Assembly: GCA_017483195.1 (NCBI GenBank) | Contig: JAFULR010000005.1 | Coordinates: forward strand, 1 to 64,000 | Length of the DNA: 64,000 nt | DNA from: Clostridia bacterium | Lineage (GTDB): Bacteria; Bacillota; Clostridia; Oscillospirales; CAG-272 | Direction of reading: 5' to 3' | Part shown: positions 8,352-37,394 of the stretch, piece by piece | Position numbering within the stretch: the stretch's first letter is position 1 | Layout of the letters: each line of letters opens with the position of its first letter | Translations under genes and position numbers: made by a program | Notes under the pieces: generated by a model | Seen by the model: only the letters and a program-made list of their open reading frames with translations | What the model was told of the DNA's origin: nothing | The model's database searches: none

Positions 8352-8427
8352 CTGGGTGTGGCGCAGCTGGTAGCGCGCTACCTTGGGGTGGTAGAGGCCG
8401 CAAGTTCAAGTCTTGTCACTCAGACCA
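8352..8427 (+). tRNA. tRNA-Pro (anticodon GGG), integration target
   Basis: 76 nt, acceptor CTGGGTG/CACTCAG (one G-T pair), anticodon stem CTACC/GGTAG around TTGGGGT (GGG at 8385-8387), encoded CCA. Its last 45 bases recur exactly at 35928-35972, so this gene was used as an attachment site and was rebuilt by the incoming element. Confidence 0.95.
8383..8427 (+). repeat. Left attachment site (tRNA-Pro 3' end)
   Basis: 45 bp identical to 35928-35972, covering the anticodon loop through CCA. Confidence 0.85.
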
Positions 8428-8562: not shown

Positions 8563-8584
8563 TTGACCACATGTTTGACCACTT
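8563..8584. repeat. Left 22-bp end repeat (possible integrase arm site)
   Basis: TTGACCACATGTTTGACC plus ACTT, itself two TTGACCAC half-sites. An identical copy lies at 35793-35814, inside the right end. Each copy is a short distance inside its attachment site. Confidence 0.65.
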
Positions 8585-14023: not shown

Positions 14024-14449
14024 CTAAATCAATACTCCATTACAATGATCCACTTCGTGCTGAATGATCTGCGCCGTCCAGCCGGTGAAGTTTTTCACGC
14101 GTGTTTGCATGTCTAAGGTCTGATACTGCACTTTGATAGTCTTATAGCGCTTGCATTTACGTGGGCCGCCGAGAAGCGATAAACAGCCTTCCTCGGTGTC
14201 ATACGCACCATCCTTTTTGACAATTTCGGGATTGAGCATTACCGTATATGTAGGAGCTCGTCCACTCTCATCGAGAAATGCGATGATGCGCTTGCGCACG
14301 CCAATCATATTCGCCGCCATACCAACGCATCCTTCTCGATGCGCTATGAGCGTATCAAGCAAGTCCTGTGCGACCTGCACATCTTCTTTCGTCGCGACAT
14401 CCGACTTCCCTGCAAGGAATATTGGATCGTGCATCAGTTCTTTAACCAT
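14024..14449 (-). CDS. def: Peptide deformylase (variant motif 1)
   Basis: Metalloenzyme removing the N-formyl group from nascent proteins. Motif 2 EGCLS and motif 3 HEVDH (metal ligands Cys, His, His and catalytic Glu) are intact. Motif 1 reads GCVGMAANMIG, where the usual active-site Gln is Met; this occurs in a subset of clostridial paralogues. At 141 aa it is slightly short, with a small lid. RBS GAGGTGA. It lies in a same-strand run with the rhodanese and TipAS genes. It is probably an accessory copy, not the housekeeping enzyme. Confidence 0.9.
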   Translation of the reverse strand: MVKELMHDPIFLAGKSDVATKEDVQVAQDLLDTLIAHREGCVGMAANMIGVRKRIIAFLDESGRAPTYTVMLNPEIVKKDGAYDTEEGCLSLLGGPRKCKRYKTIKVQYQTLDMQTRVKNFTGWTAQIIQHEVDHCNGVLI

Positions 14450-14462
14450 AGGTCACCTCAAA

Positions 14463-14861
14463 TTATTTAACGGTTTCATATTCCCAATCGATGATGCCGC
14501 CGAATTCTTTTACGTTAGTATACCCGAGCTTAACGAGCTCCTCTGCTGCAATTTTGCTTCTTCTACCGCTTCGGCAATAAACGAGAATCAACTGATCTTT
14601 GTCGGGCAACTCTCTTTCTGCGCGGTCAGCAATTTCATATTCGGGAATCAGTATCGCTCCGGGGATGTGCCCCTCGTCGTATTCATACTGTTCTCTCGCA
14701 TCAAGGATAATATAGCCACTCTCGCTATCCATCAACGCCTTGGCTTCCGCTCCGCTGATCTGCTCATAGGTTGCAGAACCGCCGTCCGAGCATCCAACGC
14801 ATCCGAGCGGTAACGCGAGAGTGAGGAGCGTGAGCAAAAATCGTTTATTTCTTTTCAACAT
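14463..14861 (-). CDS. Rhodanese-domain lipoprotein
   Basis: 132 aa from MLKRNKRFLLTLLTLAL. The longer in-frame reading to 15053 overlaps the TipAS gene and is rejected. A hydrophobic signal ends in a lipobox-like LGCVGC, so it is exported and anchored. The rhodanese fold follows: YIILDAREQYEYDEGHIPGA and the catalytic loop VYCRSGRRS with the persulfide-forming Cys. Probably sulfur transfer or redox handling outside the membrane. It overlaps the TipAS gene by 17 bp. Confidence 0.88.
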   Translation of the reverse strand: MLKRNKRFLLTLLTLALPLGCVGCSDGGSATYEQISGAEAKALMDSESGYIILDAREQYEYDEGHIPGAILIPEYEIADRAERELPDKDQLILVYCRSGRRSKIAAEELVKLGYTNVKEFGGIIDWEYETVK

Positions 14862-15225
14862 ATATCCTGATCCCTTCTGCCGCAAATGCCGCGGTGCCCT
14901 CTCCGTACTTGTCGATGTTCTTCTTGAACCGCTCGTCGGCAACGTACATCTTGCCAAGCCCTGCGAGGATCTCGTCTGTGCAGGTGTAGTAGTTGGCGGT
15001 GATATGCGCCTGAAGCTTGGCAACAAGTGCCTGCGCTTCGTCAGAATCGGCACTCACACCGCTCGCCTTGCACGCGGCAAACTCAGCAAAGATCGCCATT
15101 AAGCCATAATTTGCCTCTGCCCACTTCTCTTTTGTGTAGTTCTTTGTTTTCTGCTCGTGTTCGCGATACGCCGAGGTATCTCCCCAGCGCTCGCGAATTT
15201 CGGTAGAATAGTTTTTGTTAGTCAT
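14845..15225 (-). CDS. TipAS-type antibiotic/ligand-binding domain protein
   Basis: 126 aa from MTNKNYSTEIRERWGD. The pattern of RERWGDTxAYxE, then WAEAN near the middle and YxCTDEIxxGLGxMYVxDxRF near the end, matches the C-terminal TipAS domain of TipAL. That domain binds thiopeptide-like compounds covalently. The MerR DNA-binding domain is absent, so it likely sequesters ligand. GGAAGGAATG precedes the start. First gene of the run with the rhodanese and deformylase. Confidence 0.85.
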   Translation of the reverse strand: MTNKNYSTEIRERWGDTSAYREHEQKTKNYTKEKWAEANYGLMAIFAEFAACKASGVSADSDEAQALVAKLQAHITANYYTCTDEILAGLGKMYVADERFKKNIDKYGEGTAAFAAEGIRIYVEKK

Positions 15226-15279
15226 TCGTTCATTCCTTCCAATCAGTTCCCCACGATTCTCGTGCAACGAAGAAACACA

Positions 15280-17673
15280 TTATACGTGCTCATCTAAATA
15301 TTTTTTCAAAAGATGCTTTTCATAGTCGTCCAAATCGAAAAGGAATTTGGATATATTCTCTTTGATATACCCTTTTTGCAAGCTCAAAGTTTCACCAACT
15401 ATACGCTTTTTCTCGATTTTTCGTACGGTTATAATTGGTACTCCTCGCTCTATCATATCAATACCTAACTCTGTTTGTGCTCCGATTTCAAAATATCGAA
15501 TGATTTTACTTAAATCAAGAGGAGCCGCCAATGGACGGCTTTTTAATTCATAAGCTCGATTAATCAATGTTTCAAACAAACTCAGAATGTGAGGAAGCTG
15601 ATATTCTATAGTATCCTTAACATTGCGGAATACTTCTTTGTAGGTGTCGTTAACAAAATCTGAATCGGTTTGAGCTGCAACTTTAAACTTTGCGTAGTTA
15701 TCAAATTTGTACTTTAAGACGCCGGGATATCCATTTTGCGCATAGTTTTTAGCGAAATACTTAATTGCTTCAATCTGTGTCTCCTGTATTTCTCCCACTG
15801 ATGCCCATACTCCCAAAATAATCTCAAAATACTGCGACATAAATTGAGAAATCGAAGCTCTTTCTATGCCACACAACCTATAAAAGATTTTTGGTTCACA
15901 AAGTTTACGCAATATTTTTTCTTGCTTTTTTCGTTCAATGAGGCGATTTTGCTCAAAGACAGCATCCGGTAACAACCACTTATCCAATACGATAGCGGCC
16001 TTTCGTGCTTTGTTAGCAGGACTCAGATCACTTTCGTCTACACTTTCCAAATCCAAAGGTTCCAATAAAACATCTTCACTGTAAAGTTTGAAGTCCAGCG
16101 ATATACTATCTACGGTTTCAATCTTTTTGCTTCCTACATCTAAATAAACAATATTTCCAACAAAGTGTCTCAAATAACGACCTGCGCGGCCATTGATATT
16201 CAACAATAGAAATTTCTTGCCTGAATCATTGTCGCCAGATGGATTATTGTATAGTATAACAGTTTTAGCGTTGGTGTTTACCCCCTCAACAATAGTTGAG
16301 GTACAAAACAGCACTGGCAACTGTTTTAAATTATATAGGTTCATCACCTCTCGTTGAAAATATTTTGGAAACTTACCATTATGTATGCCTATATTATGCT
16401 CCAACGCATACAAAAAGCTCCAATCATCAAGAGAGTTTTTCTTGCTTCCACCATAGAAGAATCCATAATTTGCTTTTAAGTGTTCTATAAATAGAAGTGT
16501 TTCTTGCTTAGGAAATATTGGCTCTTGCAAAGTGGCACAATAATTTTTAGCGTAGGTTTCGGTATATCCTGGGTACAAACAATATATGATTGCCTGATTA
16601 TGTTCGCTAACACCCAAATATCCTATAATATAGTTCAATCTTTCTTCTTTGGTGTTAGATTGAGTTATAACTTTATCGTTTTCAAATGGAGACACGAGCG
16701 TTAATGTTTTCCCTGTATAATAATATTTGTTTTTTAGTGTGGGTTCAAAATGTATCTCCAACGGTGCAATATTATGCTTTTCTAGCATATTTACGAAACC
16801 TGATTTCAAGGTCTGTAAATTAATAAAGGGACCTGCAATATAACAAAAGTTTGCTTTTTTCAGCAAAAAATATAGCGCAAGCCTAAAAGCCACAGCACGA
16901 TGCTTATCATTCTTGCTGTGAGAACTAATTGATGTATTCCCGATATCGATAGCTTCATTAATGTCATCATCGCCCTGTGCTGCAATATCTTCGTCAATTT
17001 TGTATATTTCATCGTAGAAAAAGAACTGTATTTCTAGATCTGGATATAGCGCTAACAGACGTAATACGCGTTCGGGCGTAAGTATGAATATATTCTTTTC
17101 GCCTATTTCCAAATCTCTGTATACAGAGTTCACAAAGGTGTACTCCAAAGAATTCTTCTTGCAAAAAGAAGAAAGATCATCTGTAACCTCCATAAGGAGT
17201 GCCACCGTCGGCAAAACAATTACAATGTTGTCAAAACTATCGTAATTACGATATATGATTTCCTGAAGCAAAAAGGTTTTTCCAAATGAAGTAGGTGCAC
17301 TCAAAAACAAGCGTCCCTGATGTTGTTCAAAATAATCCAAAACAGCCTTTTGCTGCTTGTCCAAAACATATCCTGTTTCGGTTTTATAGTAATCAGCAAC
17401 GCAATCATCCTTAATTTGAGATATCACATCCGTATTAATTTTCTCGGCAGAAAAAGAATTTAGTCTGTTATATCCGAAAGTGCGCATGCGAACACTGGCG
17501 GAATATAAAATATATTCCAACCGTTTCTTTTCTTCTTCTGTTGCCATACACACTTTTTTCTTTTCAGAAAGAAAACATACCAAATCCTTCATGCGACCGA
17601 TTTGTTCAACAGACAATTCAGTCGTATTAACAAGTGAAAGCAGTTCCTTTATGTACCCTTTAAGTTCCTTCAC
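15280..17673 (-). CDS. hamB: Hachiman helicase HamB
   Basis: 797-aa superfamily 2 helicase. Walker A SAPTSFGKT at about 125-133, motif II DEIY at about 221-224 (a DExH variant), and motif VI NINGRAGRY in the C-terminal RecA lobe. Translation starts at GTG 17673, overlapping the hamA end by 14 bp. In Hachiman, HamB holds the HamA nuclease inactive until it senses damaged or unusual DNA, after which HamA degrades DNA indiscriminately. The pairing with a DUF1837 gene immediately upstream makes this assignment strong. Confidence 0.9.
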   Translation of the reverse strand: MKELKGYIKELLSLVNTTELSVEQIGRMKDLVCFLSEKKKVCMATEEEKKRLEYILYSASVRMRTFGYNRLNSFSAEKINTDVISQIKDDCVADYYKTETGYVLDKQQKAVLDYFEQHQGRLFLSAPTSFGKTFLLQEIIYRNYDSFDNIVIVLPTVALLMEVTDDLSSFCKKNSLEYTFVNSVYRDLEIGEKNIFILTPERVLRLLALYPDLEIQFFFYDEIYKIDEDIAAQGDDDINEAIDIGNTSISSHSKNDKHRAVAFRLALYFLLKKANFCYIAGPFINLQTLKSGFVNMLEKHNIAPLEIHFEPTLKNKYYYTGKTLTLVSPFENDKVITQSNTKEERLNYIIGYLGVSEHNQAIIYCLYPGYTETYAKNYCATLQEPIFPKQETLLFIEHLKANYGFFYGGSKKNSLDDWSFLYALEHNIGIHNGKFPKYFQREVMNLYNLKQLPVLFCTSTIVEGVNTNAKTVILYNNPSGDNDSGKKFLLLNINGRAGRYLRHFVGNIVYLDVGSKKIETVDSISLDFKLYSEDVLLEPLDLESVDESDLSPANKARKAAIVLDKWLLPDAVFEQNRLIERKKQEKILRKLCEPKIFYRLCGIERASISQFMSQYFEIILGVWASVGEIQETQIEAIKYFAKNYAQNGYPGVLKYKFDNYAKFKVAAQTDSDFVNDTYKEVFRNVKDTIEYQLPHILSLFETLINRAYELKSRPLAAPLDLSKIIRYFEIGAQTELGIDMIERGVPIITVRKIEKKRIVGETLSLQKGYIKENISKFLFDLDDYEKHLLKKYLDEHV

Positions 17674-18625
17674 TCTTTTTACTAATCCTTTCGTCTAAAA
17701 ATGCCTGTCTAAGCTTTTTTAAGTCTCTAACTGGGAAAACCATAAGCATTATTTCTATATTTAGACCGCAATTATTATTCTCGCAATATCCTTCAAAGGC
17801 CTTTTCGCATCGACATTTTACGGAAGCTAATATTTTTTCTGTGTATGTGTATTCTTCTTCCTCTGCAATAATCATACACGGTACACGTATAACTATCCCA
17901 TTCTTCTTAAAGTACTCAATGATTTTAGAATGTCGTGCTTCTGTTTCTGTTGGATAGTCAAACAATATATCATTAAGATCATCGATAATTGACTTAAGAT
18001 TGTTAGACAAATCTGATGTCGCCATCATTATATCCGACATAATTGCCATTGCACTGGCAAAATAATGTTTCAGTATGCTCTTGTCTATATCCTCTTTGAT
18101 CCCCTTAAAACAGTAGTCCCACGTTCCTGTTTTTACCTGCCCAACCCACATATGCTTTTTCCCTTTTTCGGAAGAAAACAACAATCCGTCATATCCCTTG
18201 ATTTCATGTCCCTTTCTATTTGGTTCGGCATCTTTCCGAGGATATTTTTCATAATACTTTACACGTGAGTAAAGCAACTCGATGTTTTCAAAAAAACATT
18301 TGATAAAACTGTCAAGCGCCAATTCTCCCATCAATCCGTCATTGAGTTTTTCTGTTTTTGGGACGCGATTTTCGTAGGCGGCTCGAGCCGCTTTATGAAG
18401 ATTAGCAAATTTCCCTCGCTCATAGGCATATTCAATTTCATTTTTCTCGTATGCGTAAAAAATGATTGCATCAAAAAGCAACGCCGAAAATGCCGCTTCA
18501 AAATCATCTGTATTGGTGTGAATATAAGGGAAAGTCTCATATTTCCCTTTGTACGGTTCGTATTTCATTACCAATGGCGGCAATCTTTTGCCGATACATT
18601 CCTGAAATATTTCAATCGCAGTCAT
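17660..18625 (-). CDS. hamA: Hachiman nuclease HamA (DUF1837)
   Basis: 321 aa. The conserved block GELALDSFIKCFF (Glu), KGYDGLLF (Asp) and VGQVKTGTW (Q-x-K) forms the PD-(D/E)XK-type centre of the HamA/DUF1837 family. HamA is the DNA-degrading effector of Hachiman; HamB is its regulator. The start is ATG 18625 after GGGAAGG. The gene order hamA-hamB is the standard one. It follows the NUDIX gene by about 20 bp on the same strand, so the defence genes may be read from upstream. Confidence 0.9.
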   Translation of the reverse strand: MTAIEIFQECIGKRLPPLVMKYEPYKGKYETFPYIHTNTDDFEAAFSALLFDAIIFYAYEKNEIEYAYERGKFANLHKAARAAYENRVPKTEKLNDGLMGELALDSFIKCFFENIELLYSRVKYYEKYPRKDAEPNRKGHEIKGYDGLLFSSEKGKKHMWVGQVKTGTWDYCFKGIKEDIDKSILKHYFASAMAIMSDIMMATSDLSNNLKSIIDDLNDILFDYPTETEARHSKIIEYFKKNGIVIRVPCMIIAEEEEYTYTEKILASVKCRCEKAFEGYCENNNCGLNIEIMLMVFPVRDLKKLRQAFLDERISKKSEGT

Positions 18626-22017: not shown

Positions 22018-24123
22018 TTATTCTCCTAACACATAATAAATTTGGTCTGCAATAGCTTGGGCCATCAGCGGCGGCACTGCATTTCCGATTTGCTGACGAA
22101 TATACAATTTTGCTCCGATAAATACAAACTTATCGTCAAACGATTGTATTCTTGCTGCTTCGCGAGGTGTAATAGCTCTATGCAAGAACGGGTGATTATT
22201 TGTACCATTCGAGGAAGCATCGAACCTTGTATCTATCGTTGGCGAAACTGCATCCCATTTCAATCTTCCCCATGTTCCGCTAAATTGCTGATTGCCTGTC
22301 ATCTCTTGCGGCAAGTGTTCTTTTCCGCATTCGGGCGGAATCATTTGCAATTTTCTGATTGCTATTTCTGCGTGGTTTGATGCCTTGTGGTTATACAGTT
22401 TTTTGCTTCCCTGCCGCATTGCTCTTTGGTAAGCACTTGTAGGCTCCGTGATGTAGTCTTGCTCGAATTCGCCCTCGCTAGAGTTCAAGTATGCCAAATC
22501 ATAGATAGCATCTCTTACCGTTACTACCTTGTCGCAAGTAGGTTTAGGAAGTGCTACGGGTTTGCTTTTTGAACATATGAATATTGCTCTTTGTCTTGCT
22601 TGAGGAACACCAAAGTCTGATGCCGTGAGTACACCGTATTCCACATGATAGCCCATTCGTCTAACTTTCTCTATTATCTGATTTTTGAACCATCCAGCAG
22701 AAGTGGACAGAAGAGCTTTCACATTCTCGATTACGAACACTTCAGGCTTTAATATGCTCACAATATTAAGGTATTCATTGAAGAGGAAGTTTCGAGGATC
22801 ATCTAGTCCTAGTTTTTTTCCTTTGAGCGAGAATCCTTGACAAGGTGGTCCGCCAATAATCATATTCACATTGCGTTTTCTACTCAATTCAATGATTTGT
22901 TTTTTAACCTTATTATCCGTAATATCGCCCGTAACTACTTCGGTATTGGGCATATTATACTTAAATGTTTCAAGTGCTTGCGGATTATAGTCCAATGCTA
23001 CTTCTGTTGTAAAATGTGCATTTTTCTCCATTCCATAGGACATTCCACCTGCACCACTGAACAAGTCCAATATTCTAAATTCTTTAATTGCCATGTTATT
23101 TAATCTCTTATTGCGAATCAAGATTCTCTTGAAAACTTCCTTTCCATTGATGGTAGGTTTGAACAAATCGAACTCGTTATCGGACCCGTGATTTGCTTCG
23201 CCTACAATCTCGAACTGTTCGCTATTGTATCTGTTTACGATAGTAATCGGGACTCCCATAACGCCTGCATAGTCATACGGAATTTCAGTTATTGACCTTA
23301 CATGAATGGCATCATATGTATCATACTTGGGGTATTCTTGCGGATCGTATCTCTTAGTTAAAGGTAGTTCTTCGTGTCGTCTGTCGTTATCTAAGTTAGT
23401 CAACCACATAGCATTTCCCAGGCTACGCCATTTCTGTCCTGTTTCGTCGACCCAATAACGCATAGCGCGAGGCTCTGACGACTGCGGCACTCTGAATTTC
23501 ATTTCACCGAACTGATAACCTGTCCATACCTCATTATTTTGAATCAAAGGAAATATCTCTTTGTAAGTTAACGCATTTTGGTTGCCGATCAGCAGAAAGC
23601 TCTTTTTATATCTCATTATTTCAGCAACTATCTCTTTGAATAATGAGAATGGAGGGTTCGTTACCACTATATCTGCCATCTTTAAGTATTCAATGCATTC
23701 GGGGCTTCTGAAATCTCCATCCCCCTTAAGTCGTTTGATTACCCTGTTGTTTTTTAGATACTTCGCAATGAATTCTTCTGATATATCTTCTTCATCACAG
23801 AACTTACTGATATCGAGAACATAACCATTCTCACCATGTAAATAACAATCATCTTGGTCTACAAATCTCAACTGTGTTCCAATCACCTTGGATGATTTGT
23901 ATGATGTACATATCAATCTTCTTAGTTTAAGTTTGTTGAAATTTTTCAAGAAGAATTTACAGAAATTTGATTCAAATGGGTCATCACAATTACAAAGCAC
24001 AGTTTTTTCTTCAAACTGCTCTATGTAATGGAAAACCTCTTTTTGGATCGTCTCATATGTTGTGTAAAACTCATCATCTTTTGCTCTTTTGGCTACTTGA
24101 AGATTCGTGTTTTTATTTCCCAT
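22018..24123 (-). CDS. Fused adenine-N6 / cytosine-C5 DNA methyltransferase
   Basis: 701 aa from ATG 24123 (GGAGAATAAAA upstream; the longer 723-aa reading lacks a good site). Residues 1-340 are an EcoRI-family adenine methyltransferase with DIVVTNPPFSLF at about 151-162. Residues 349-701 are a complete C5-cytosine enzyme: FSGAGGMSYG (motif I, about 355), GPPCQGFS (motif IV, catalytic Cys, about 428), ENV (about 466), a QARQR motif, and GNAVPP (motif X). The two enzymes meet at LNNMAIKEF, where an internal ATG could also start the C5 half alone. It would protect both strands of an asymmetric site with different marks (inference). Confidence 0.92.
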   Translation of the reverse strand: MGNKNTNLQVAKRAKDDEFYTTYETIQKEVFHYIEQFEEKTVLCNCDDPFESNFCKFFLKNFNKLKLRRLICTSYKSSKVIGTQLRFVDQDDCYLHGENGYVLDISKFCDEEDISEEFIAKYLKNNRVIKRLKGDGDFRSPECIEYLKMADIVVTNPPFSLFKEIVAEIMRYKKSFLLIGNQNALTYKEIFPLIQNNEVWTGYQFGEMKFRVPQSSEPRAMRYWVDETGQKWRSLGNAMWLTNLDNDRRHEELPLTKRYDPQEYPKYDTYDAIHVRSITEIPYDYAGVMGVPITIVNRYNSEQFEIVGEANHGSDNEFDLFKPTINGKEVFKRILIRNKRLNNMAIKEFRILDLFSGAGGMSYGMEKNAHFTTEVALDYNPQALETFKYNMPNTEVVTGDITDNKVKKQIIELSRKRNVNMIIGGPPCQGFSLKGKKLGLDDPRNFLFNEYLNIVSILKPEVFVIENVKALLSTSAGWFKNQIIEKVRRMGYHVEYGVLTASDFGVPQARQRAIFICSKSKPVALPKPTCDKVVTVRDAIYDLAYLNSSEGEFEQDYITEPTSAYQRAMRQGSKKLYNHKASNHAEIAIRKLQMIPPECGKEHLPQEMTGNQQFSGTWGRLKWDAVSPTIDTRFDASSNGTNNHPFLHRAITPREAARIQSFDDKFVFIGAKLYIRQQIGNAVPPLMAQAIADQIYYVLGE

Positions 24124-24157
24124 TTTTATTCTCCGCTTTGCTATTATGTTTCGATTC

Positions 24158-24376
24158 TTATTGAGCAGTTTGATCAGGAACGATCTCAACTATATCATCC
24201 ATTGTGCAATTAAGCGCAGTGCAGATTTTCACAAGCACATCACTCGATACAGTTGCACCGTCTTTTTTCATCTTTGCGAGTGTTGCCGGGCTGATACCTG
24301 CTTTTGCAGCAAGGTCTTTGCTTTTCATCTCGCGATCAATCAACATTTTGAACAGTTTCTTATAGCTTGCAGCCAT
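24158..24376 (-). CDS. Xre-type regulator of the R-M operon
   Basis: 72 aa from ATG 24376 after GAGGTGGAAA. A single helix-turn-helix domain (KDLAAKAGISPATLAKMKK). It acts like a C protein timing methyltransferase before nuclease expression. It lies directly before the methyltransferase and is clearly paralogous to the regulator at 58134-58352. Confidence 0.88.
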   Translation of the reverse strand: MAASYKKLFKMLIDREMKSKDLAAKAGISPATLAKMKKDGATVSSDVLVKICTALNCTMDDIVEIVPDQTAQ

Positions 24377-24653: not shown

Positions 24654-26114
24654 TTATGCATTGATCGTTTGTTTCATTTCGGCGATTTCCGCGTTCATTG
24701 TGGCTATCAGTTCGGCGAGCTTCTGCTCGCATTCCTCAATACTTGATGCGTACACGTTTCGGATGATTCTTGTACCATTCACGTTCGGAGAATATCTTCC
24801 TTCCCACACGTTTTTGCTGACCTGATGGATCGAGCCTGTTCCCTGCCGTCTGTACTTGCCCCGACGAGGCTCAAATTTCTCGCGTGGTGGCTTTTGCGGT
24901 CTTGTGTCGGGTGTTTGTTCTACCGCGCCTTGTGTGCCGTTATTTTCGCCTGTAACGCCCGAGATCGCGCCCATCGCTCGGTCGATTCGATTGGCTGCAG
25001 TTCGCATTCCTTCGTCGGTGGTATGCGAGTAGACGTTCAGCGTGGTTTCCACGCTTTCGTGACCGATCGTGCTTGCGAGCGTTTTTGCATCCATTCCATA
25101 CCGCAAAGCCTGCGTTGCGAAGGTATGGCGGAGCGCGTGGAACGGTACGTGCTTACACTCGGCTCTCTCAAGGATCGTCGCGAGCTTCTTTCTGCATGAG
25201 CAAGGATCGCGTGGGACATCCTCGTGTTTATATGGCGACGGGAACAGCCATTTAGATCTCACTCTCGTCTTATATTCCTTTAGCACCGCTATGAGTTGTG
25301 GCGGCAGGATGATCGTTCTCTCGGCTGCTTTGGTTTTCGGTGGTTTGATTTGCAGTTTTCCTTCCACGAACTTGACTTGCTTGGTTACCTTCAACTCGCC
25401 TGTTTCGAAGTTGATGTCCTCCCATAGAAGTCCGAGCAATTCTCCTCGTCTGAGTCCTGTGGACAGGTCGAGCAGGAACATCTCGTAGAAGCCGTCGGCT
25501 TCGTATTTGGCTTGTATCAAGAGCCTTTGCATCTCCGCAGGTGTCAGCACCTCGATCTCAACGCTTTTCTTCGGCGGCAGAGCGCAATGTGCGGCAGGAT
25601 TTTGCCGTATGAGGTTCTCCTTTTTCGCCTTTTCTAGTGCGGCTCGGCAATGAGCGTGTATGCTTCTAATAACCGAGTTCGCAAGCCCTGCTCCGAACTG
25701 CTCACGCCTTACCAATCTGCCGTCACTTTTTAGGTGAGCGTAGAACTTTTCAAGCGTGCCGGTCGTGATTTGGTTAAGAGGAATATCTCCGATCTTGGGG
25801 ATGATCTGATTGTATATTCTCTGCTCATAGGTTGTCTGCGTGTAAGGCTTGAGAGCAGGCTTGCAGTAGGTCTGATACCAGAAGTCCATCCATTCGCCGA
25901 ACGGCATATCCGCCGTGCATCGCGTGATCTCGGTCGCGCCGATTTCTTCCTTGAGTGCTTCAAGCCGTTCCACACATTCGGTTTTTGTTTTGGCAAGGAC
26001 ACTCTTGGTTTTCGGCAAGCCCTTATCGTCATAGCCGACGACGATTCGACCTTCCCATCTTCCGTCCTTGCGTAGTCTTACTGTGCCTTCGCCTGATTTT
26101 CTTCGTCTTGCCAT
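24654..26114 (-). CDS. int: Tyrosine recombinase with duplicated arm-binding domain
   Basis: 486 aa. Arm-binding AP2-like domain (GTVRLRKDGRWEGRIV), SAM-like core-binding domain (about 65-190), and catalytic domain with Arg in TGLRRGELLGL, HALRHTFATQ (H-x-x-R), GHES and the nucleophile Tyr in LNVYSHTT. Unusually, residues after about 425 repeat the arm-binding domain (GTGSIHQVSKNVWEGRY). This copy overlaps the preceding integrase by 37 bp, so the two are co-translated. Confidence 0.92.
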   Translation of the reverse strand: MARRRKSGEGTVRLRKDGRWEGRIVVGYDDKGLPKTKSVLAKTKTECVERLEALKEEIGATEITRCTADMPFGEWMDFWYQTYCKPALKPYTQTTYEQRIYNQIIPKIGDIPLNQITTGTLEKFYAHLKSDGRLVRREQFGAGLANSVIRSIHAHCRAALEKAKKENLIRQNPAAHCALPPKKSVEIEVLTPAEMQRLLIQAKYEADGFYEMFLLDLSTGLRRGELLGLLWEDINFETGELKVTKQVKFVEGKLQIKPPKTKAAERTIILPPQLIAVLKEYKTRVRSKWLFPSPYKHEDVPRDPCSCRKKLATILERAECKHVPFHALRHTFATQALRYGMDAKTLASTIGHESVETTLNVYSHTTDEGMRTAANRIDRAMGAISGVTGENNGTQGAVEQTPDTRPQKPPREKFEPRRGKYRRQGTGSIHQVSKNVWEGRYSPNVNGTRIIRNVYASSIEECEQKLAELIATMNAEIAEMKQTINA

Positions 26115-27277
26115 GGCTTCAACTCCTCTCCAAACATATCCGTTATAAAGTTACCGACGATTCCCGATGCCTGCCTTTGCATGTCCGTGGTCACATGCGT
26201 GTATCGGTCGAGCGTGAAGCTCGCCTTGGTGTGACCAAGGATACCTGCCAAGGTTTTTGGATCAATTCCGTTCGAGGCGGCGTGCGTTGCGAAGGTATGC
26301 CGTAGGTCGTGGAATCTCATATCGGGAAGCCCTGCTTTCTTAAGCAGCTTCTTCAGTTGCATGTAGGCTGCTTCGGGCATCATCGGATGCTCGGGATAGT
26401 ACGGCTTCGGGAAGATCCACTCGGCGAGCGCCTTTTTCCTTCTCTCCTTCAGCATCTCTGCCACACTTGCAGGTAGTACGATTTTTCGGTTTCCTTCGTT
26501 CGTTTTGGTTTCACCGACGATATAAATTCCACGAGCGTATCGCACCGATCTCTGTATATGGAGCATTCCGTGTTCTTCGTCGAAGTCCGTCCATTTGAGT
26601 CCGCAGATTTCTCCTCGCCTCATGCCTGTCATGATCGCCGTGTAGAAGAAGTCGTGCCATATCTCATCGCCCTCAAGTGCCTGCATGAAGGTTTCGATCT
26701 GTGATTCGAGAAGGATCGTTTTCTCGGTTTTCTCGTTTTTCGGAATGGTCGTAGCTTCGGTCGGATTGAACGGTATTAGACCTTCCTTCACCGCGCCGTC
26801 CATCGCTTCGTGCAGTAGCATGTGCACCGAGCGAACCGTTGCGTTGGCAAGTCCTTCGCCGTATTTTTCGCGAGAGGCGATTCGTCCTTCTCTTTTGAGC
26901 TTGTTATAGAGCCTTTGGATGTCGGTTGTGGTTACCGAGGTTAGCGTTTTTCTGCCGATGTACGGCTTGATATGATTGTCCGCATATCCTCGGTATCCTT
27001 CCATCGTGCTTCCTCGGAGCATCGGCTCTTTGATCTCCGTGAGCCATCGGTCAAGCCACTCGCCGAGCGTGATCTTGCTGTGCTCAGTAAGCGACATGCC
27101 TGCATAGTATTCCTTGAGCTGATTGAGCTTTGGCATCAGCTCGCGTTGCGTTTTCGCGAATACCGAACGGTAGATGGGATATCCGTCGGCTCTGTGACCG
27201 ACTACGATTCGTCCTTCCCACCGTCCGTCGCTTCGCTTTCTTATCAATCCGTCGACCGACGGTCTGCGTTTTGACAT
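26078..27277 (-). CDS. int: Tyrosine recombinase, second of the pair
   Basis: 399 aa, same layout: arm domain (GLIRKRSDGRWEGRIV), core-binding domain, catalytic domain with TGMRRGEICGL, FHDLRHTFATH, GHTKAS and Tyr in LDRYTHVTT. Similar to, but well diverged from, the downstream partner. A tandem pair may form a heteromeric integrase or act on different ends. Confidence 0.92.
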   Translation of the reverse strand: MSKRRPSVDGLIRKRSDGRWEGRIVVGHRADGYPIYRSVFAKTQRELMPKLNQLKEYYAGMSLTEHSKITLGEWLDRWLTEIKEPMLRGSTMEGYRGYADNHIKPYIGRKTLTSVTTTDIQRLYNKLKREGRIASREKYGEGLANATVRSVHMLLHEAMDGAVKEGLIPFNPTEATTIPKNEKTEKTILLESQIETFMQALEGDEIWHDFFYTAIMTGMRRGEICGLKWTDFDEEHGMLHIQRSVRYARGIYIVGETKTNEGNRKIVLPASVAEMLKERRKKALAEWIFPKPYYPEHPMMPEAAYMQLKKLLKKAGLPDMRFHDLRHTFATHAASNGIDPKTLAGILGHTKASFTLDRYTHVTTDMQRQASGIVGNFITDMFGEELKPWQDEENQAKAQ

Positions 27278-27376: not shown

Positions 27377-27793
27377 TTATTCTTCATCACTAATTCCAGT
27401 ATGATGGATCGTAGAGTCAAGCGAAACACGACCGCGCGTTCTTCTTACGTTGTTGTAAGCTCTCTTACGATACTCCTCCAAGTCATATTCATCGATACTC
27501 ATGCGGTCTGCAACTAACTGTATCGCCATGTCAAGATACACGGCATAGCGGAAGAGACCGCTCGCAACCTTTTTCATCGCAACATCATTGGATTGAGTAA
27601 TGATCTCCGCGAGCTTACTCGTCAACACCGGGTTCGCCTCGCTCAAGGTTAGCTCGGCAATATAATTTTCAATCGCCTTGACGATGAACTCATTTCTTGA
27701 TTTACAACCTGAAGCATGCACCGCCTTGTCAGTCGTTTTCAAGAAATCCTCGTCTAGATATACCGTGAATTTTACTTTCTCTTTTGCTTTCAT
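27377..27793 (-). CDS. Ribbon-helix-helix protein
   Basis: 138 aa. The N-terminus KVKFTVYLDEDFLKTTDKAV then CKSRNEFIVKAIENYI is a CopG/MobC-like ribbon-helix-helix DNA-binding domain. The C-terminal helical part is uncharacterised. RBS TAGGAGGTTTT. Likely a relaxosome accessory or element regulator, given the neighbouring integrases and rep-like gene. Confidence 0.75.
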   Translation of the reverse strand: MKAKEKVKFTVYLDEDFLKTTDKAVHASGCKSRNEFIVKAIENYIAELTLSEANPVLTSKLAEIITQSNDVAMKKVASGLFRYAVYLDMAIQLVADRMSIDEYDLEEYRKRAYNNVRRTRGRVSLDSTIHHTGISDEE

Positions 27794-28064: not shown

Positions 28065-28502
28065 TTAAATCACTCGCTTTCGGCATTTTGCATCAAATCG
28101 TTCCAACGCTTTTTCTGCGTTTCTTCTAGCCATCTCGGCTTGCAGTTTTCGCATCTGCTGCTCGTCATAGTAATCGATCGCATCTTGAATCGGACGGATA
28201 GTATATCGCAAGCTGCCGTTACAAAAACGACCGTTCTTTGCTCTCACCATCGTGAGTTCCGTTGTGATCAATCTCTTTTTCTCAAGCTCCTTGACATATT
28301 TTTGAACCGTGTTTGCCGTTCGACCAATACATGAACCAATCGTTGCGTGGCTCGGATAACAGGTATAGGTTTTCTTATCCTCGCACCTCACAAGATATAA
28401 ATAGATCGCCAACTCCTCCGCAGACAATCCAAGATCAAAGATTCGATTGTGCACGGGAAAATAATTTTCACGCGGTTCTCTTTTCTGACCGTAGTAAAAC
28501 AT
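28065..28502 (-). CDS. Helix-turn-helix replication-initiator-like protein
   Basis: 145 aa from ATG 28502; a TTG at 28538 lies inside the upstream gene. Winged-HTH pattern LSAEELAIYLYLVRCED, CYPSHATIGSCIGRTANTV and QKYVKELEKKRLITTE, as in N-terminal domains of mobile-element replication initiators. The basic tail KALERFDAKCRKRV fits DNA binding. The downstream interval 27794-28064 holds a perfect hairpin around 28012-28035 (GCAAAGCACC/GGTGCTTTGC). Confidence 0.75.
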   Translation of the reverse strand: MFYYGQKREPRENYFPVHNRIFDLGLSAEELAIYLYLVRCEDKKTYTCYPSHATIGSCIGRTANTVQKYVKELEKKRLITTELTMVRAKNGRFCNGSLRYTIRPIQDAIDYYDEQQMRKLQAEMARRNAEKALERFDAKCRKRVI

Positions 28503-28518
28503 ATCGACCACGCCCCCG

Positions 28519-28893
28519 TTAGGCAGAGTATCTGCCAAGCGATTGTTCGATTTGAATTTCTACGAGTCGTTTGCCAAAGAGAATATGCCATAGGATCAGA
28601 ACGAGAAAGTCAACGAATTTCATATTCCAATTTCTCGCACTCGCTTCGGCGATGGCTCGATCAAGATCTTCACAAGTCATCTCATTGAGCATCCGATAGC
28701 GAATATCTGATTTTGAAAAATAAATACCTTGTACGCTGATTCCGTCCATATCCCAAAGCAACAGCATTGCGTTGCGAGCAATGAATTTTATTTCCTCGCT
28801 CGCGTATTTTCTTGACGGATGAAAGTAACATTCGTCAAGCTCATCCTTGAATCTTTTGTCATCAAGAAGGCCGTATCGACTATTCTCCGTCAT
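28519..28893 (-). CDS. Hypothetical protein of the mobility cluster
   Basis: 124 aa from MTENSRYGLLDDK. Its ATG overlaps the excisionase stop as ATGA and follows GGGAGGCAATCG. Contains FHPSRKYASEEIKFIARNAMLL and a hydrophobic stretch FVDFLVLILWHILFG that could be a membrane segment. Not recognised; always expected with the rep-like gene by coupling. Confidence 0.65.
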   Translation of the reverse strand: MTENSRYGLLDDKRFKDELDECYFHPSRKYASEEIKFIARNAMLLLWDMDGISVQGIYFSKSDIRYRMLNEMTCEDLDRAIAEASARNWNMKFVDFLVLILWHILFGKRLVEIQIEQSLGRYSA

Positions 28894-29988: not shown

Positions 29989-30972
29989 ATGAAAGCTGAT
30001 TTATATAAAAGACTTTTTAAAGCTATATTTACCGAAGACAATATTGCATTGAAAAAAATTGCCACTACAATAATTCAAGATGAAAGAGATTTAGGTCACC
30101 ATAATCTTGCAAATGCATTGGAAAAAATATCAATAACAGAGAAACCTAAGCATTCAATTTTTGATCCTCGCCACTCTGAAACAGGATTATCAGCATTACC
30201 TAAAAGCAAACGCACCAACACTCAATTGCTATCATATATACCTAGAGAACAATTAAAGCACCATATGATATTGCCTGATAGCATTGAAAATCGTTTGCTT
30301 TCAATTGAACAAGAATATGCTGCTCGTGAACGTTTGAAAAAATACAATCTTACACCCAAACAAAAGATTTTATTACATGGCCCTCCCGGCTGCGGCAAAA
30401 CATTAAGTGCTGAACGAATTGCATGGAATTTAGGCTTGCCCTTACTGAAAGTTAGATTTGATTCACTTCTCTCTTCTTATTTTGGAGAATCCGCTTCAAA
30501 TCTTAGAATGGTATTTGATTATTGCAAAACAGAACCAGTTGTGCTATTGTTAGACGAATGTGATTTTATTGCAAAATCTAGAATATCATCACAGGATGTT
30601 GGCGAAGTACCTAGAATTGTAAACATGCTCCTTACGTTGTTAGACGAATATACCGCCCCCGGCTTGGTATTAGCTACGACGAACCTCAAAGTTTCTTTGG
30701 ATGAAGCTCTGTTTCGAAGATTTGATGATGTAATTGAAATACCAATGCCCGGCAAAGATGAAAGAACTCGATTATTAACAATGACTTTGTCAGCAATCAC
30801 TCTTTCGCCCGAAGTCGACTTGAATACGATCGCTAGTCAAATGGATGGCTATTCCGCTGCCAATGTTGTTTTGTTGGCTCAGCGAGCTGCCAAAATTGGA
30901 GTTTTATCAGGTTCGAAAATCATAAACAACGAACACTTTACCAAGGCATTAGATGAAAGTTCAAAGTTTTAA
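29989..30972 (+). CDS. ietA: IetA AAA+ ATPase
   Basis: 327 aa. Walker A LLHGPPGCGKT at about 123-133, Walker B VVLLLDECDFI, sensor VLATTNL, arginine finger region ALFRRFDDVIEIPMP. Helical N-terminal 100 residues. Paired with a subtilisin-like protease 25 bp downstream. The ATPase-protease pair matches IetA/IetS, first described as a plasmid toxin-antitoxin and later as an anti-phage system. IetA is the ATPase that restrains or licenses the protease. Confidence 0.88.
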   Translation: MKADLYKRLFKAIFTEDNIALKKIATTIIQDERDLGHHNLANALEKISITEKPKHSIFDPRHSETGLSALPKSKRTNTQLLSYIPREQLKHHMILPDSIENRLLSIEQEYAARERLKKYNLTPKQKILLHGPPGCGKTLSAERIAWNLGLPLLKVRFDSLLSSYFGESASNLRMVFDYCKTEPVVLLLDECDFIAKSRISSQDVGEVPRIVNMLLTLLDEYTAPGLVLATTNLKVSLDEALFRRFDDVIEIPMPGKDERTRLLTMTLSAITLSPEVDLNTIASQMDGYSAANVVLLAQRAAKIGVLSGSKIINNEHFTKALDESSKF

Positions 30973-30997
30973 AAACTAAGGAATAGGAGGTATACTG

Positions 30998-33571
30998 ATG
31001 GCAGACAATCAATTTACTCACTTGCCACTTCCTTTTCAGTATCAAGGAAGACCCAAATTGCGTGGGTTTCCCAACCCTAACGAAAGAACCCAAGCCAATG
31101 TTTCTAACAGAACGGAACACGGTGGATATGTAAAAAGACGTTCGGCTGAACTGTCACGATTTTGGAGAGAGCGGCAAGCTTCTCGTCAACGAGAGAAGCT
31201 TCCTGAAATCAAATCGGGTATTCCTCTTCTATTAGAAATAGATCCAACCACCGATGTTGGCTTTTTGAAAGGGCTTGGATTTGAGGTCGTGTGCGAAATC
31301 GAAGAAGGCTTCATTATTGTAGCTACCGATGATATAGACATGAACACCTTGAATAACAAAGCCGATGGATTTATTCAAAATATTAATAATAGATGTAATA
31401 CGCCAGCAAGAATCTATGCTCTATGCGAAGACAATGATCGTTTAGCAAAAGTATTATCCTCTGAATTGCGTGGCAAATGGTCTAATATCGTTCCTGAACA
31501 AACGTATATCATCGATATTGGTGTTAGTTGCTGTGGTGGAATAGAACTGCCCAAGTGTCCTGCGCAAAACGAAGGCGAATCAGAAGAACATTACTCACAG
31601 AGGCTAAGCAATTGGGAGAGAAAGTCTACAGAAGCATATATGCGTTGGGACGAATTAAAATTAGAGCGAGAATCCACTATCGAAACCTTTGTTTCAGAAT
31701 ATGATGGAGAAATTCTAAATTACACGGAAGAAAATCTTGGCATTTCCCGTTTGCCTGATAGTTTTTCAGCTAGACTCAAGATTTCTGGAAAATGTCTTGT
31801 TGATCTTGTGCTAAATTTCGCTTATATTTTCGAAGTTTCTGAAGCCGAGGACATTACTTTAGATTCGCAAAGTGCTACAAATGAGTTGGTTGATGAACGA
31901 CTTAATATCATAGCACCCGAAGAATCAGACCCCGTAGTTTGTGTTATAGATAGTGGTGTTCAAGAAGAACACAAGTATCTTGCCCCTGCAATTGTTTCGG
32001 CCGATTCTGTAAGCCTGCTACCCAATAACGCAATCGTTGCGGACGAAGTAGCAAATGGTGGACATGGCACTCGTGTGGCAGGTGCCATACTGTATCCCCA
32101 AACAGTTCCTAACTCCGGCGACTATAAACTTCCATGTTGGATACGTAACTTTAGAGTTCTTGACGAAAGTAATAGTATGCCGCAAACGCTTTATCCTCCA
32201 ATAGTTATTTCTTCGGCTGTCAACGCTTATTGGGGAGCCGAGGAAAAAAATTCAAAAATCTATAATCACTCTATTGGAACAAGACGATCTTGTGAATTAA
32301 AGCATATGTCCGCTTGGGCAGCAGAAATCGATTCACAGTCATATAACAATGACATTTTATTTATTCAGGCCGCAGGTAATATTCCCGAAGAAATCATTGC
32401 GGCGTATTGGCAGCACGGATCGCCTTATCCCGACTATTTTGATAAAGAGCTTTGCAGAATATCCGATCCGGCGCAAAGCCTACAAGCTTTAACCGTCGGC
32501 TCTGTATCCTCCTGTGATTACGAAACAGAGGATAAGATAGCATTAGGATCTAAGGATGAAATTTCTTCGTTCTCAAGATCCGGCCCAGGAATTTGGGATG
32601 TAATTAAACCTGATGTTGTAGAATATGGTGGCACACATGTTTGGAACAAAGGGAGCACCCCACCACAGTTAACTACTCCATCAGATGTATGCCCAGAATT
32701 AATTAGAAAGTCTCCTGAAGGGCCTGCGTATGCAAGAGATACTGTTGGAACATCATTTTCTGCCCCAAAGATATCGTATATCGCTTCTCAAATTCAAAAA
32801 ATATTGCCTGATTCGCCAGCCCTCTTATACAGAGCATTGATTGCACAATCTGCTAGATGGCCAGCACTCCATAATACCATGACAAAAAGCCAATGCGTTT
32901 CCACATTGCGCCATATTGGTTATGGAATTCCGGATATTGATCGCGCAACCCATAATGATGAGTATAGAATAACTTTGATTACGCCGAACTTAATGGAAAT
33001 TGGCGCCAATGAAGCACATATCTTTAAAATTCCAATTCCCGAAGAGTTATCCTCTGTTGGTGAAGATTTTGATGTCCTAGTTGAAATTACTTTATCCTAT
33101 GCGGCTAACCCTCGAAGAACTAGACGCTATGTCAAAAGTTATCTATCTACATGGTTGGAATGGTGTTGTAGTAAAATTGGAGAAACTTCCGAATCCTTTG
33201 CTCGTCGTATCTTTGAAACGGGCTCCGCAGTAGACGATGATGGAAATTTTGACTGGGCAATCGGTGATGCAACAAATCATGGTAGAACCGATGGCTATTC
33301 ACGCAAAAACGGAACTCTTCAAAAAGATTGGTGCATTATTAAGTCCAACCAATTGAGCGATGCGTTCTGTATTGCAGTTAGAGGTCACGGCGGATGGGGA
33401 GATGTGTTCAAGGCAAAATATTCATTATCCGTAAGTTTTGAGGCTATCAATCAAGATATAGCAATTTATGAACCTATACGGACCGAAATAGAGTCTGTTA
33501 TTGAAAGCCGCGAAATTGAAGTGGAACTTTCTAACCCAAGCGAACAAGTTGCTTTATCACCCTCAAACTAA
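30998..33571 (+). CDS. ietS: IetS subtilisin-like serine protease
   Basis: 857 aa, no signal peptide, so cytoplasmic. S8 catalytic triad: Asp in VVCVIDSGVQEEH (about 310), His in GGHGTRVAGAIL (about 352) and Ser in VGTSFSAPKIS (about 587). An N-terminal 300-residue region and a C-terminal beta-rich region flank the protease. RBS AGGAGGT. With IetA it forms a two-gene defence/toxic module; the protein it cleaves is not known to me. Confidence 0.9.
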   Translation: MADNQFTHLPLPFQYQGRPKLRGFPNPNERTQANVSNRTEHGGYVKRRSAELSRFWRERQASRQREKLPEIKSGIPLLLEIDPTTDVGFLKGLGFEVVCEIEEGFIIVATDDIDMNTLNNKADGFIQNINNRCNTPARIYALCEDNDRLAKVLSSELRGKWSNIVPEQTYIIDIGVSCCGGIELPKCPAQNEGESEEHYSQRLSNWERKSTEAYMRWDELKLERESTIETFVSEYDGEILNYTEENLGISRLPDSFSARLKISGKCLVDLVLNFAYIFEVSEAEDITLDSQSATNELVDERLNIIAPEESDPVVCVIDSGVQEEHKYLAPAIVSADSVSLLPNNAIVADEVANGGHGTRVAGAILYPQTVPNSGDYKLPCWIRNFRVLDESNSMPQTLYPPIVISSAVNAYWGAEEKNSKIYNHSIGTRRSCELKHMSAWAAEIDSQSYNNDILFIQAAGNIPEEIIAAYWQHGSPYPDYFDKELCRISDPAQSLQALTVGSVSSCDYETEDKIALGSKDEISSFSRSGPGIWDVIKPDVVEYGGTHVWNKGSTPPQLTTPSDVCPELIRKSPEGPAYARDTVGTSFSAPKISYIASQIQKILPDSPALLYRALIAQSARWPALHNTMTKSQCVSTLRHIGYGIPDIDRATHNDEYRITLITPNLMEIGANEAHIFKIPIPEELSSVGEDFDVLVEITLSYAANPRRTRRYVKSYLSTWLEWCCSKIGETSESFARRIFETGSAVDDDGNFDWAIGDATNHGRTDGYSRKNGTLQKDWCIIKSNQLSDAFCIAVRGHGGWGDVFKAKYSLSVSFEAINQDIAIYEPIRTEIESVIESREIEVELSNPSEQVALSPSN

Positions 33572-33650: not shown

Positions 33651-34421
33651 AAATGTGATTTTAAGGCCTTGCATACCGCTTGCGGTATATTGCGTTAAGC
33701 TCGTCGTGTGCGACCGACGAGTAGCAAACAAAGTGAATTTTGTACTTGACAATCTGCCGGGCAAGAGTTACAATACGACACCGGCGGAAGAAGAAAAGCC
33801 CTTGAGGTGGGAGTTTGCTTCCCTGCTCTCAAAGGCTTTCCGACCACATGTTTTGACCACGCGGTTTCGGTTCTGTATGACCACATATTTTAGCCAACCG
33901 CTTTCGGGCTGACCACATTGTGTTTCTTCTCTGTTGGTTTTCTTCTTGCGGCTGCTACCGCCGTCTTGATACTTTGACCGATTTTCAGGTGACCACTTGT
34001 GCTTTTTAAAGGTGCGAGTTTTGACCACATTCTTGACCATAGTGCGGAGTGGACTACATGGAAACAGTAGTACACGAGAGCACGAAAATATACGGTTTAG
34101 TTGACAGAATAGCACTAAAAAGCACTAAATGACATTAGAAAAACATAAAAATCGGTCTTGGGGTAAAGTCGAATTATGTCGTTTTTCCGGAGCAAAGGAG
34201 ACATAATGGACTAGAAACGACTAGAAAAAAATATTAGTGCTAAAAAGGGCTAGATACCACCATCCTTTCGCTCTCAAAAAACACAGTTTTCATATTTTAT
34301 GCTCTAATTTCGTCATATTTTATAACAAAAACACTTGAACTACCAAGAATTTTATACTTGAACTTCACAAGCGCAAAGGAGTCTTCTTTCTCTTTTGTAG
34401 GATGATAGAGGTTTTTGAATT
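33651..34421. other. Non-coding interval rich in TGACCAC repeats
   Basis: About 770 bp. TGACCAC occurs near 33853, 33879, 33911, 33990 and 34022 (plus GACCACATG at 33843). A block beginning GACTACATGGAAACA near 34051 resembles the right end at about 35829 (CACATGGAAACAAG). It looks like an older or duplicated element end. Open frames here lack ribosome binding sites. Confidence 0.55.
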
Positions 34422-35792: not shown

Positions 35793-35814
35793 TTGACCAC
35801 ATGTTTGACCACTT
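35793..35814. repeat. Right 22-bp end repeat
   Basis: Exact copy of 8563-8584 in the same orientation. Confidence 0.65.
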
Positions 35815-35927
35815 ACAGAACCGGAGCACATGGAAACAAGAGCGCCAGAGAGCGCGTTTTGACAACTTTTGTGTACCAGAAAGGTCTAAACGGAGCAGAA
35901 ACGCCTAGAAAATAGTAATTTTTACCA

Positions 35928-35972
35928 TTGGGGTGGTAGAGGCCGCAAGTTCAAGTCTTGTCACTCAGACCA
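35928..35972 (+). repeat. Right attachment site (45-bp tRNA-Pro fragment)
   Basis: Identical to the 3' 45 bases of tRNA-Pro at 8383-8427, including CCA. It lacks the 5' half, so it is not a tRNA gene. Confidence 0.88.
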
Positions 35973-36199: not shown

Positions 36200-37390
36200 A
36201 TGGCCAGTGTAACCGAAAAAAGCAACGGAAAATGTGTAGTTCGCGTGTTTTGTGGAAATGATGACTACGGACGCAAGGTTGTCAAGAGCAAGACCTTCAC
36301 TCCCAGCTCACCCAATCTTTCCTATTCAAAATATCACAAGGAGCTGACACATTTCACAAAGCTCTTTGAGGAAGAATGCCAAGAGCTGATCGAAAAAGGA
36401 CTTTTGAACTGCATAAGTCAAAGCAAGATGCCCTTCTCTGCTTTTTGCGAGAAATATCTTGAGATTCAAGAAAAGAATCTTGCGCCCGAGACCTTACATT
36501 TTTATCGAACCGTCATCAACACACATTTAATTCCTATGTACGGAAAACTGATGATATCGGATATTAAGGTAAGGCACATCCAGGATTACATCGTTTTCCT
36601 TTCCAAGAAGAAAAAACCCCATAGCAGACTTGAGATATCCCCCGCAACAGTCAAGCGATATACAACAGTCTTGCGCTCCATTATGACGCTTGCATACAAG
36701 ATGGAGTACATCGAGGATGATATTAGTTCCTCTAAAAGATTAGTATTTCCAAAGGAGGAAACACCTGAGATCGAAGTCTTTTCCGAGGACGAGCTTAACA
36801 CCATATTTGAAGCGCTTGAGAGCGAGCCAATAAACATTCGTGTATTAATTGAGCTTGCGTTAATGACCGGATGCAGACGTGGTGAAATAGTTGGGCTTAA
36901 ATGGAGTGACATTGATTTGGAAAAGCAGACTATCTCAATTAAAAGAAGTGCTTATCAGGTAGCTAATCAAGAAATCAAAACTAAAATGCCCAAAAGCAAG
37001 AACAGTATCAGAAGGTTCTCAATTCCCTCTCGCCTGTGTTTGACCTTGAATGAGTATAAGAATGACTATGATACTTGCAAGGCAATGTGGGGCGAAAGCT
37101 GTAACCCCGAGGGCTATCTTTTTACACAGTTTGATGGAACATTGATGCATCCCGACACGCCGACGAGGCAGTACGCAAAATTCTTAAAACGACACGGCAT
37201 ACGGCACATAAAGTTTCATGCCTTACGCCATACTGCTGCCACAATTCTTCTTGCTAACGGTTGTGATATTAAAACAGTTTCAGCACATCTCGGACACGGT
37301 GACATTGAAACAACAAATATCTATCTGCACGCTATGCAAGAGGCGGATAGGAAAGCCGCCAACACTCTTGATAAGCTATTTGCTAAGTAA
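36200..37390 (+). CDS. int: Tyrosine recombinase adjacent to the attachment site
   Basis: 396 aa, RBS AAAGGAGGT. Arm domain, core-binding domain (AFCEKYLEIQEKNLAPET) and catalytic residues in TGCRRGEIVGL, KFHALRHTAAT, GHGDIET and Tyr in NIYLHAMQ. It begins 228 bp right of the 45-bp repeat, so it most likely belongs to a second element in the same tRNA. Confidence 0.92.
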   Translation: MASVTEKSNGKCVVRVFCGNDDYGRKVVKSKTFTPSSPNLSYSKYHKELTHFTKLFEEECQELIEKGLLNCISQSKMPFSAFCEKYLEIQEKNLAPETLHFYRTVINTHLIPMYGKLMISDIKVRHIQDYIVFLSKKKKPHSRLEISPATVKRYTTVLRSIMTLAYKMEYIEDDISSSKRLVFPKEETPEIEVFSEDELNTIFEALESEPINIRVLIELALMTGCRRGEIVGLKWSDIDLEKQTISIKRSAYQVANQEIKTKMPKSKNSIRRFSIPSRLCLTLNEYKNDYDTCKAMWGESCNPEGYLFTQFDGTLMHPDTPTRQYAKFLKRHGIRHIKFHALRHTAATILLANGCDIKTVSAHLGHGDIETTNIYLHAMQEADRKAANTLDKLFAK

Positions 37391-37394
37391 AATG

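Follow-up and report, generated by a model that had tools for sequence, protein, structure and literature searches.

A tyrosine recombinase with a second arm-binding-type domain at its C-terminus, encoded with a partner integrase in an element at tRNA-Pro

The integrase pair and its element

Two tyrosine recombinase genes, Int2 and Int1, lie in tandem in the window, the whole 64,000-nt stretch of DNA that was analysed and whose numbering is used throughout (Table 1). An earlier note on this DNA had described Int2 as an integrase with a tandem partner; the partner is real, and the two genes overlap by 37 bp. The span given in that note was correct for Int2 but did not take in the other parts of the system, namely Int1, the att sites and the arms. 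The Pfam family PF00589 is found in both proteins (E 2.4e-25 in Int2, 8e-30 in Int1). Across 45 aligned rows of Int2, residues R223, K260, H326, R329, H352 and Y362 are invariant and are assigned as the RKHRH-Y catalytic set, by which Int2 is a tyrosine recombinase. In the alignments, the catalytic residues are retained in Int1 as well.

Table 1. Features of the integrase pair and its element, with positions in the window.
Feature	Position	Strand	Basis or size
tRNA-Pro(ggg), target gene; repeated 3' half 8383-8427 = attL	8352..8427	+	tRNA + repeat
P' arm, GACCAC pair, 182 bp from core	8563..8582	+	motif search
Int2, tyrosine recombinase, two AB domains	24654..26114	-	486 aa
AB2, C-terminal second arm-binding-type domain, residues 421-486	24657..24854	-	profile, conservation, model
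Int2 variable linker, residues 386-420	24855..24959	-	largely low model confidence
Int2 catalytic domain, residues 186-385	24960..25559	-	PF00589 + model
AB1, N-terminal arm-binding domain, residues 1-62	25929..26114	-	profile comparison, AlphaFold2 model
Int1, partner tyrosine recombinase, one AB domain	26078..27277	-	399 aa
RHH protein, conserved neighbour	27377..27793	-	shared neighbour
HTH_36 protein, conserved neighbour	28065..28538	-	shared neighbour
Excisionase-like ORF, 71 aa	28890..29105	-	TIGR01764 E 1.6e-5, 25.2 bits, under cut-off 28.8
Variant P arm module, before further junction	34023..34066	+	motif search
Further junction, core TTGGGGT	34158..34164	+	junction comparison
P arm module, GACCAC pair + block B, 133 bp from core	35795..35838	+	motif search
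attR, 45-bp copy of tRNA 3' half, core TTGGGGT	35928..35972	+	direct repeat

The integrase genes are flanked by 45-bp direct repeats, attL within the tRNA gene and attR as a copy of the 3' half of the tRNA, and the position of this copy gives an element of about 8.4-36 kb, its right end being provisional in view of the variant junction at 34158. Homology to locus L031 stops at 24174 and 29191; these positions had been considered as the ends of the element and were dropped on finding the tRNA repeat. Six att junctions with interchanged halves, at 8383, 34158, 35928, 71492, 78746 and 83787, are spread over about 75 kb of the window's contig (C1). They share only the 7-bp TTGGGGT, which is the anticodon loop of the tRNA, and this common core with interchanged flanks makes it likely that crossover occurs within the anticodon loop. 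The chain of junctions is read as an accretion array of elements at one tRNA-Pro. Two more integrases of 396 and 411 aa, encoded on opposite strands at 36200-39083 just past attR, probably belong to the next element in the array. Contig C28 of genome G000 (positions 1-7196) is 99.99% identical to C1 71493-78688 and begins at an att core; it is either a second copy or an assembly artefact.

Among 29 loci surveyed for neighbours, many of them too short upstream, the RHH protein is present in 12, the HTH_36 protein in 11 and a relaxase-like family (F4) in 10. The relaxase gene, carried by L031 and other relatives, lies between the RHH gene and Int1; both members tested are MobL (PF18555), and one also matches MobP3 (NF041499). 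In the window, no gene occupies this usual place of the relaxase, and MobL has 0 matches in the window's genome, which is 88.57% complete. With att flanks present and no MobL relaxase, the element is called IME-derived.

The element also carries defence cargo at 11014-18625, consisting of a defence reverse transcriptase of the UG5-nitrilase type and the Hachiman pair HamA/HamB. At 29989-33571, an AAA ATPase is paired with a subtilase, and the two match IetA and IetS. A single ORF at 22018-24189 encodes an EcoRI-type adenine methylase with a C5 cytosine methylase behind it; it is here, at about 24174, that L031 homology stops.

In related elements, a tRNA-Pro gene lies antisense and downstream of Int2 at 7 of 23 loci and in 8 of 11 larger regions, with anticodon ggg, cgg, tgg or agg. 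L050 has a tRNA-Val downstream of Int2, and genome G139 has a tRNA-Thr, a copy of whose tail adjoins Int2.

A second arm-binding-type domain in Int2

Pfam recognizes a SAM-like core-binding domain (residues 72-128) and the catalytic domain (189-367) of Int2 and has no name for either the N- or the C-terminal end. It was claimed in the earlier note that an N-terminal arm-binding (AB) motif recurs behind the catalytic domain, and both quoted motifs are in place, GTVRLRKDGRWEGRI at residues 10-24 and GTGSIHQVSKNVWEGRY at 425-441. Profile comparison, conservation, selection and a structural model all give good support to the claim of a second arm-binding-type domain. An hhalign comparison of the profile of residues 1-66, built from 48 family members, with that of residues 411-486 gave a probability of 98.7, E 2.5e-16 and a score of 79; scores reached at most 18.6 for 26 other Int1/Int2 segments and at most 21.7 for 100 column shuffles. 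By this measure, AB2 is a homologue of Int2's own AB domain. The AB domain of Int1 matches the AB2 profile more weakly (E 1.8e-10, score 52). A cysteine at the start of the helix is common to AB1 (C47) and AB2 (C462) and absent from Int1, which suggests a duplication inside the Int2 line. The AB2 consensus retains AB1's basic start and EGR motif, and the strand region kept in AB1 as RKDGRWEGR differs in AB2.

The AlphaFold2 model of Int2, computed from 45 rows, has a mean pLDDT of 81.4 and a pTM of 0.56. It contains AB2 as three strands (428-433, 436-441 and 452-456) and a long helix (459-485), with pLDDT of 67 at 421-430 and 83-89 at 431-480. The C-terminal segment is thus modelled as folded and does not show the disorder that the earlier note named as its refutation; in the linker, pLDDT falls below 50 at 385-409. 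The same elements are obtained when AB2 is modelled alone (pLDDT 80.9). AB1 is modelled with strands 11-14, 20-28 and 34-41 and helix 44-57. In the available text of PMC8138268, the IntTn916 AB domain has a topology of three strands and one helix, and as modelled, the N-terminal AB domain of Int2 has the form that defines the IntTn916 subgroup. The closest structure to the whole Int2 model is Tn1549 integrase, and the model also contains strands at 246-250 and 253-257.

For the 'AP2-like' fold attributed to the C-terminus, the evidence is its topology and its homology to AB1. A Foldseek search with AB2 alone gave nothing among solved folds at E <= 0.001. In VIA-align, AB2 matched 3rmp_C, a P4-like integrase, at Z 4.3 and 6sy0_A, an AP2 pair, at Z 4.7, amid unrelated folds of up to Z 6.1. 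Searched against Pfam and PDB sequences, AB1 and AB2 found no arm-binding match: AB2 had nothing above the Pfam cut-off, no solved integrase matched either sequence profile, and PF14657 (Arm-DNA-bind_4) has no match in the window's genome.

AB2 is conserved like the catalytic domain and unlike the linker: mean pairwise identity is 0.59 in AB2, 0.65 in AB1, 0.60 in the catalytic domain and 0.23 in the linker, and 12 positions of AB2 are invariant over 46 relatives. The dN/dS ratios of AB2 in ten pairs were 0.07, 0.00, 0.10, 0.04, 0.03, 0.40, 0.18, 0.05, 0.05 and 0.02, that is, within 0.00-0.40 and at or below 0.10 in eight. AB2 is therefore under purifying selection.

Distribution of the pair

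Among 295 genomes of the order, 32, the window's own included, have nearly full-length Int2 of the AB2 type, at no fewer than 38 places; this is a lower bound, with at most five candidates scored per genome. Within the phylum, the AB2 profile matches 22 of 398 genomes at E <= 0.001, four of them strongly (below 1e-30). A scan of genome contigs, with titles that include Oscillospiraceae, Flavonifractor and Pseudoflavonifractor, found 31 loci, of which 24 (L031-L052, L054 and L055) have AB2. A tree was built from the core-binding and catalytic parts of 48 distinct Int2 proteins with a length of >= 450 aa, 39 Int1 proteins and 15 AB2-less relatives; each of the three groups forms a clade, with support of 1.0, 0.906 and 0.728, respectively.

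Int1 and Int2 are paired in most loci. An intact Int1 is present at 41 of 52 Int2 loci, a set that includes some genomes counted from two collections. The genes of these intact pairs overlap by 37 bp in 21 cases, 43 bp in six, 17 bp in three, 34 bp in one and 4 bp in two, and small gaps separate the other eight; overlapping pairs have the two genes in the same order. Of the other 11 loci, four (L015, L037, L038 and L039) end at a contig edge, one (L035) is at an edge and has a split Int1, and three (L006, L011 and L044, the last two being one genome) have an interrupted Int1; at L025, L048 and L049 there is no Int1 within the DNA compared.

Variants of AB2 itself were also seen. The Int2 gene of G092 (L013) has a TAG within AB2. 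The proteins of L065 and L087 (the latter being the L025 gene) seem to continue after AB2 into a helix-turn-helix-like tail, possibly a further DNA-binding part. Candidates for standalone AB2 proteins (L062 and L084, both in G013) were rejected, as these short frames look like remnants of the 3' end of Int2; that of L084 starts near the nucleophile tyrosine. A scan of IMG/VR with AB2 gave six loci, in four of which the match is at the end of the frame (one with an HxLRH motif) and in two of which it is the N-terminal domain of another integrase. None of the best 20 of 477 plasmid records covers AB2; among the best 20 of 1640 phage records, three cover the whole of Int2, and these are unannotated faecal scaffolds.

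Arm sites and block B

The att arms of the element differ in layout. On the P side, two GACCAC sites 12 bp apart are followed by a second conserved element, block B (GGAGCA..GGAAACA), in a module of 44 bp; on the P' side there are GACCAC repeats only. The sequence TTGACCACATGTTTGACCAC has exactly two copies in the window, one inside each end, and a third with three mismatches at 34021; it matched in no shuffle of the window. Its 17-bp form is found seven times exactly and once with one mismatch in the genome. All of these copies lie either on the window's contig or on C28, which nearly duplicates a part of it, and the reversed 17-bp pattern has 0 matches in the genome.

A flexible-gap pattern of the P-arm module hit 14 of 295 genomes, against 3 of 295 for the reversed control; its 19 places share a single 44-bp spacing. 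Full-length Int2 is present in 10 of the 14 genomes, on the same contig as the module in six (G000, G217, G055, G194, G108 and G159) and on another contig in four; G255 has an Int2 fragment, and none is listed in G267, G211 and G164. In a set of 20 modules, from which C28 was left out and to which L032 and L033 were added, the core starts at 133 bp in 15 and at 132 bp in one, while four have no core by pattern. The 16 cores lie downstream of the module, and none of the 20 was seen as a P' arm. The blocks are nearly invariant, partly as a result of having formed the search pattern, and the spacer has a mean identity of 0.44 (nine dereplicated sites of 18).

A pattern that omits block B was also compared between genomes that have a full-length Int2 of the AB2 type and genomes that lack one. 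It occurs in 11 of 31 of the former and in 1 of 31 of the latter (Fisher p 0.0026), and its reversed control in 2 of 62; no site was found in the remaining 20 of the 31 Int2 genomes. Fourteen of its 16 sites are P arms, all of which appear to carry block B or a close variant. The other two, the G227 site and one from G108, are P' arms that precede a tRNA; for the P arm itself, the count is therefore 10 of 31 against 1 of 31. In a count that omitted GACCAC pairs with block B behind them, the P'-side repeats stand 114-116 bp from the core at 11 sites and 182 bp at five, with no block B; some P' arms carry three GACCAC units. Some GACCAC pairs, in L036, L047, L050, L055, L101 and L103, have no core at either of the usual distances.

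In L094 (1667-1990, G108), the P' repeats are closely followed by a complete tRNA-Pro gene and preceded by a truncated tRNA 5' half that ends in the anticodon loop, and the same layout is seen in L092, L091, L040, L054, L096, L098, L100 and L108. It looks as if the element brings in an entire replacement tRNA here. Units of about 190 bp are stacked in G108 and L092, as serial insertions would leave them.

The 15 AB2-less relatives have one integrase each, with an open frame of 380-464 aa, and a tRNA-Met, -Leu, -Thr or -Pro in 7 of 15. Apart from one unassigned pair in L126, no GACCAC pairs were found in the few kb around them, so the comparison with these relatives gives no link between block B and AB2.

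A model for the pair and its alternatives

The reading favoured here, with a probability of roughly 0.6, is that Int1 and Int2 act together at tRNA-Pro, that their N-terminal domains read GACCAC and that AB2 adds a DNA contact, possibly with block B. Int2 is a tyrosine recombinase of the Tn916/Tn1549 type with its catalytic set intact, carrying AB2 on a flexible linker behind the catalytic domain. With the co-encoded Int1, it would integrate and excise the element at the tRNA-Pro anticodon loop. Both proteins would most likely use their N-terminal AB domains to bind the GACCAC repeats of the two att arms, and AB2 would give each Int1/Int2 pair a third contact with arm DNA, the simplest candidate being block B, which lies on the P arm only. 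A pair would then set its three AB domains against three P-arm blocks and, on the P' arm, against two or three GACCAC sites. From sequence, we infer the joint complex, the binding of DNA by AB2 and the assignment of AB2 to block B. The unusual synaptic complex with a partner proposed in the earlier note fits the pairing in most loci, the two kinds of arm block and the asymmetric arms.

A more specific form of this model is held only tentatively. In a two-enzyme intasome, AB2 would reach arm DNA from the catalytic side, read block B and so mark which arm is which, the P arm presenting three blocks in fixed phase and the P' arm GACCAC only; direction would in this way be built into the integrase. 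A less likely but serious alternative is that AB2, as a real AB-type domain, instead binds further GACCAC sites, for example as a bridge from one arm to the other or from an arm to another molecule, and that block B is read by the excisionase or a host bending protein. The element does contain an excisionase-like gene, AB2 is homologous to AB1, and with a third GACCAC unit on some P' arms there may be more GACCAC sites in need of a reader than N-terminal domains; the divergence of AB2 from AB1 at the RKDGRWEGR strand region argues weakly for another specificity.

That the pair is not one machine, with one enzyme recombining and the other a redundant or regulatory copy, is unlikely. Solitary relatives exist, and Int1 is absent from the DNA compared at three Int2 loci and interrupted at three more, but both proteins keep their catalytic residues and both are intact at 41 of the 52 loci, mostly with overlapping frames in the same order.

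The C-terminal segment of tyrosine recombinases packs on the neighbouring subunit, and AB2, conserved as a fold behind a flexible linker and kept (a weak point) at the three loci without Int1 in the DNA compared, might now be a mere contact surface that holds Int1 or shapes the tetramer and no longer binds DNA; this is improbable given the basic start and EGR motif that its consensus shares with AB1 and an arm layout with an extra conserved block.

Comparison with known systems

A second AB domain at the C-terminus was not found in the literature searched, for some searches among the best matches only. According to the available text of PMC8138268, tyrosine recombinases became mobile by gaining the AB domain at their N-terminus, and the nearest duplication named there is that of RitA, which has two sequential core-binding domains. 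RitA belongs to the RIT elements, which carry several tyrosine recombinases each. The present element resembles these in its multiple recombinases and in a domain duplication of a sort known in the superfamily. However, as far as that text describes them, RIT recombinases are simple enzymes without AB domains, whereas in Int2 it is an AB domain that is duplicated, and at the other end of the protein.

With regard to mobilization, the element is like those with MobL/MobP3 relaxases (PF18555, NF041499) in that its relatives have a relaxase gene between the RHH gene and Int1, and unlike them in lacking this gene.

XerC and XerD are two related tyrosine recombinases that act together, without arm-binding domains, at the chromosomal dif site. 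Int1 and Int2 are likewise two related tyrosine recombinases and may likewise act jointly, but they have arm-binding domains and lie in an element at a tRNA gene. If the model is true, a conserved second AB domain at the opposite end of the protein, a partner enzyme and a two-block arm layout together represent another way to an asymmetric recombination complex.

Another close parallel is with the Tn916/Tn1549-type integrases. As these are described in the available text of Smyshlyaev et al. 2021 (PMC8138268), Int2 shares with them the core-binding and catalytic domains and, at the N-terminus, an AB domain made up of three strands and one helix, and Tn1549 Int is its best structural match. Int2 differs from the same enzymes in its second, C-terminal AB domain, in its co-encoded partner and in a target that is tRNA-Pro rather than AT-rich sites.
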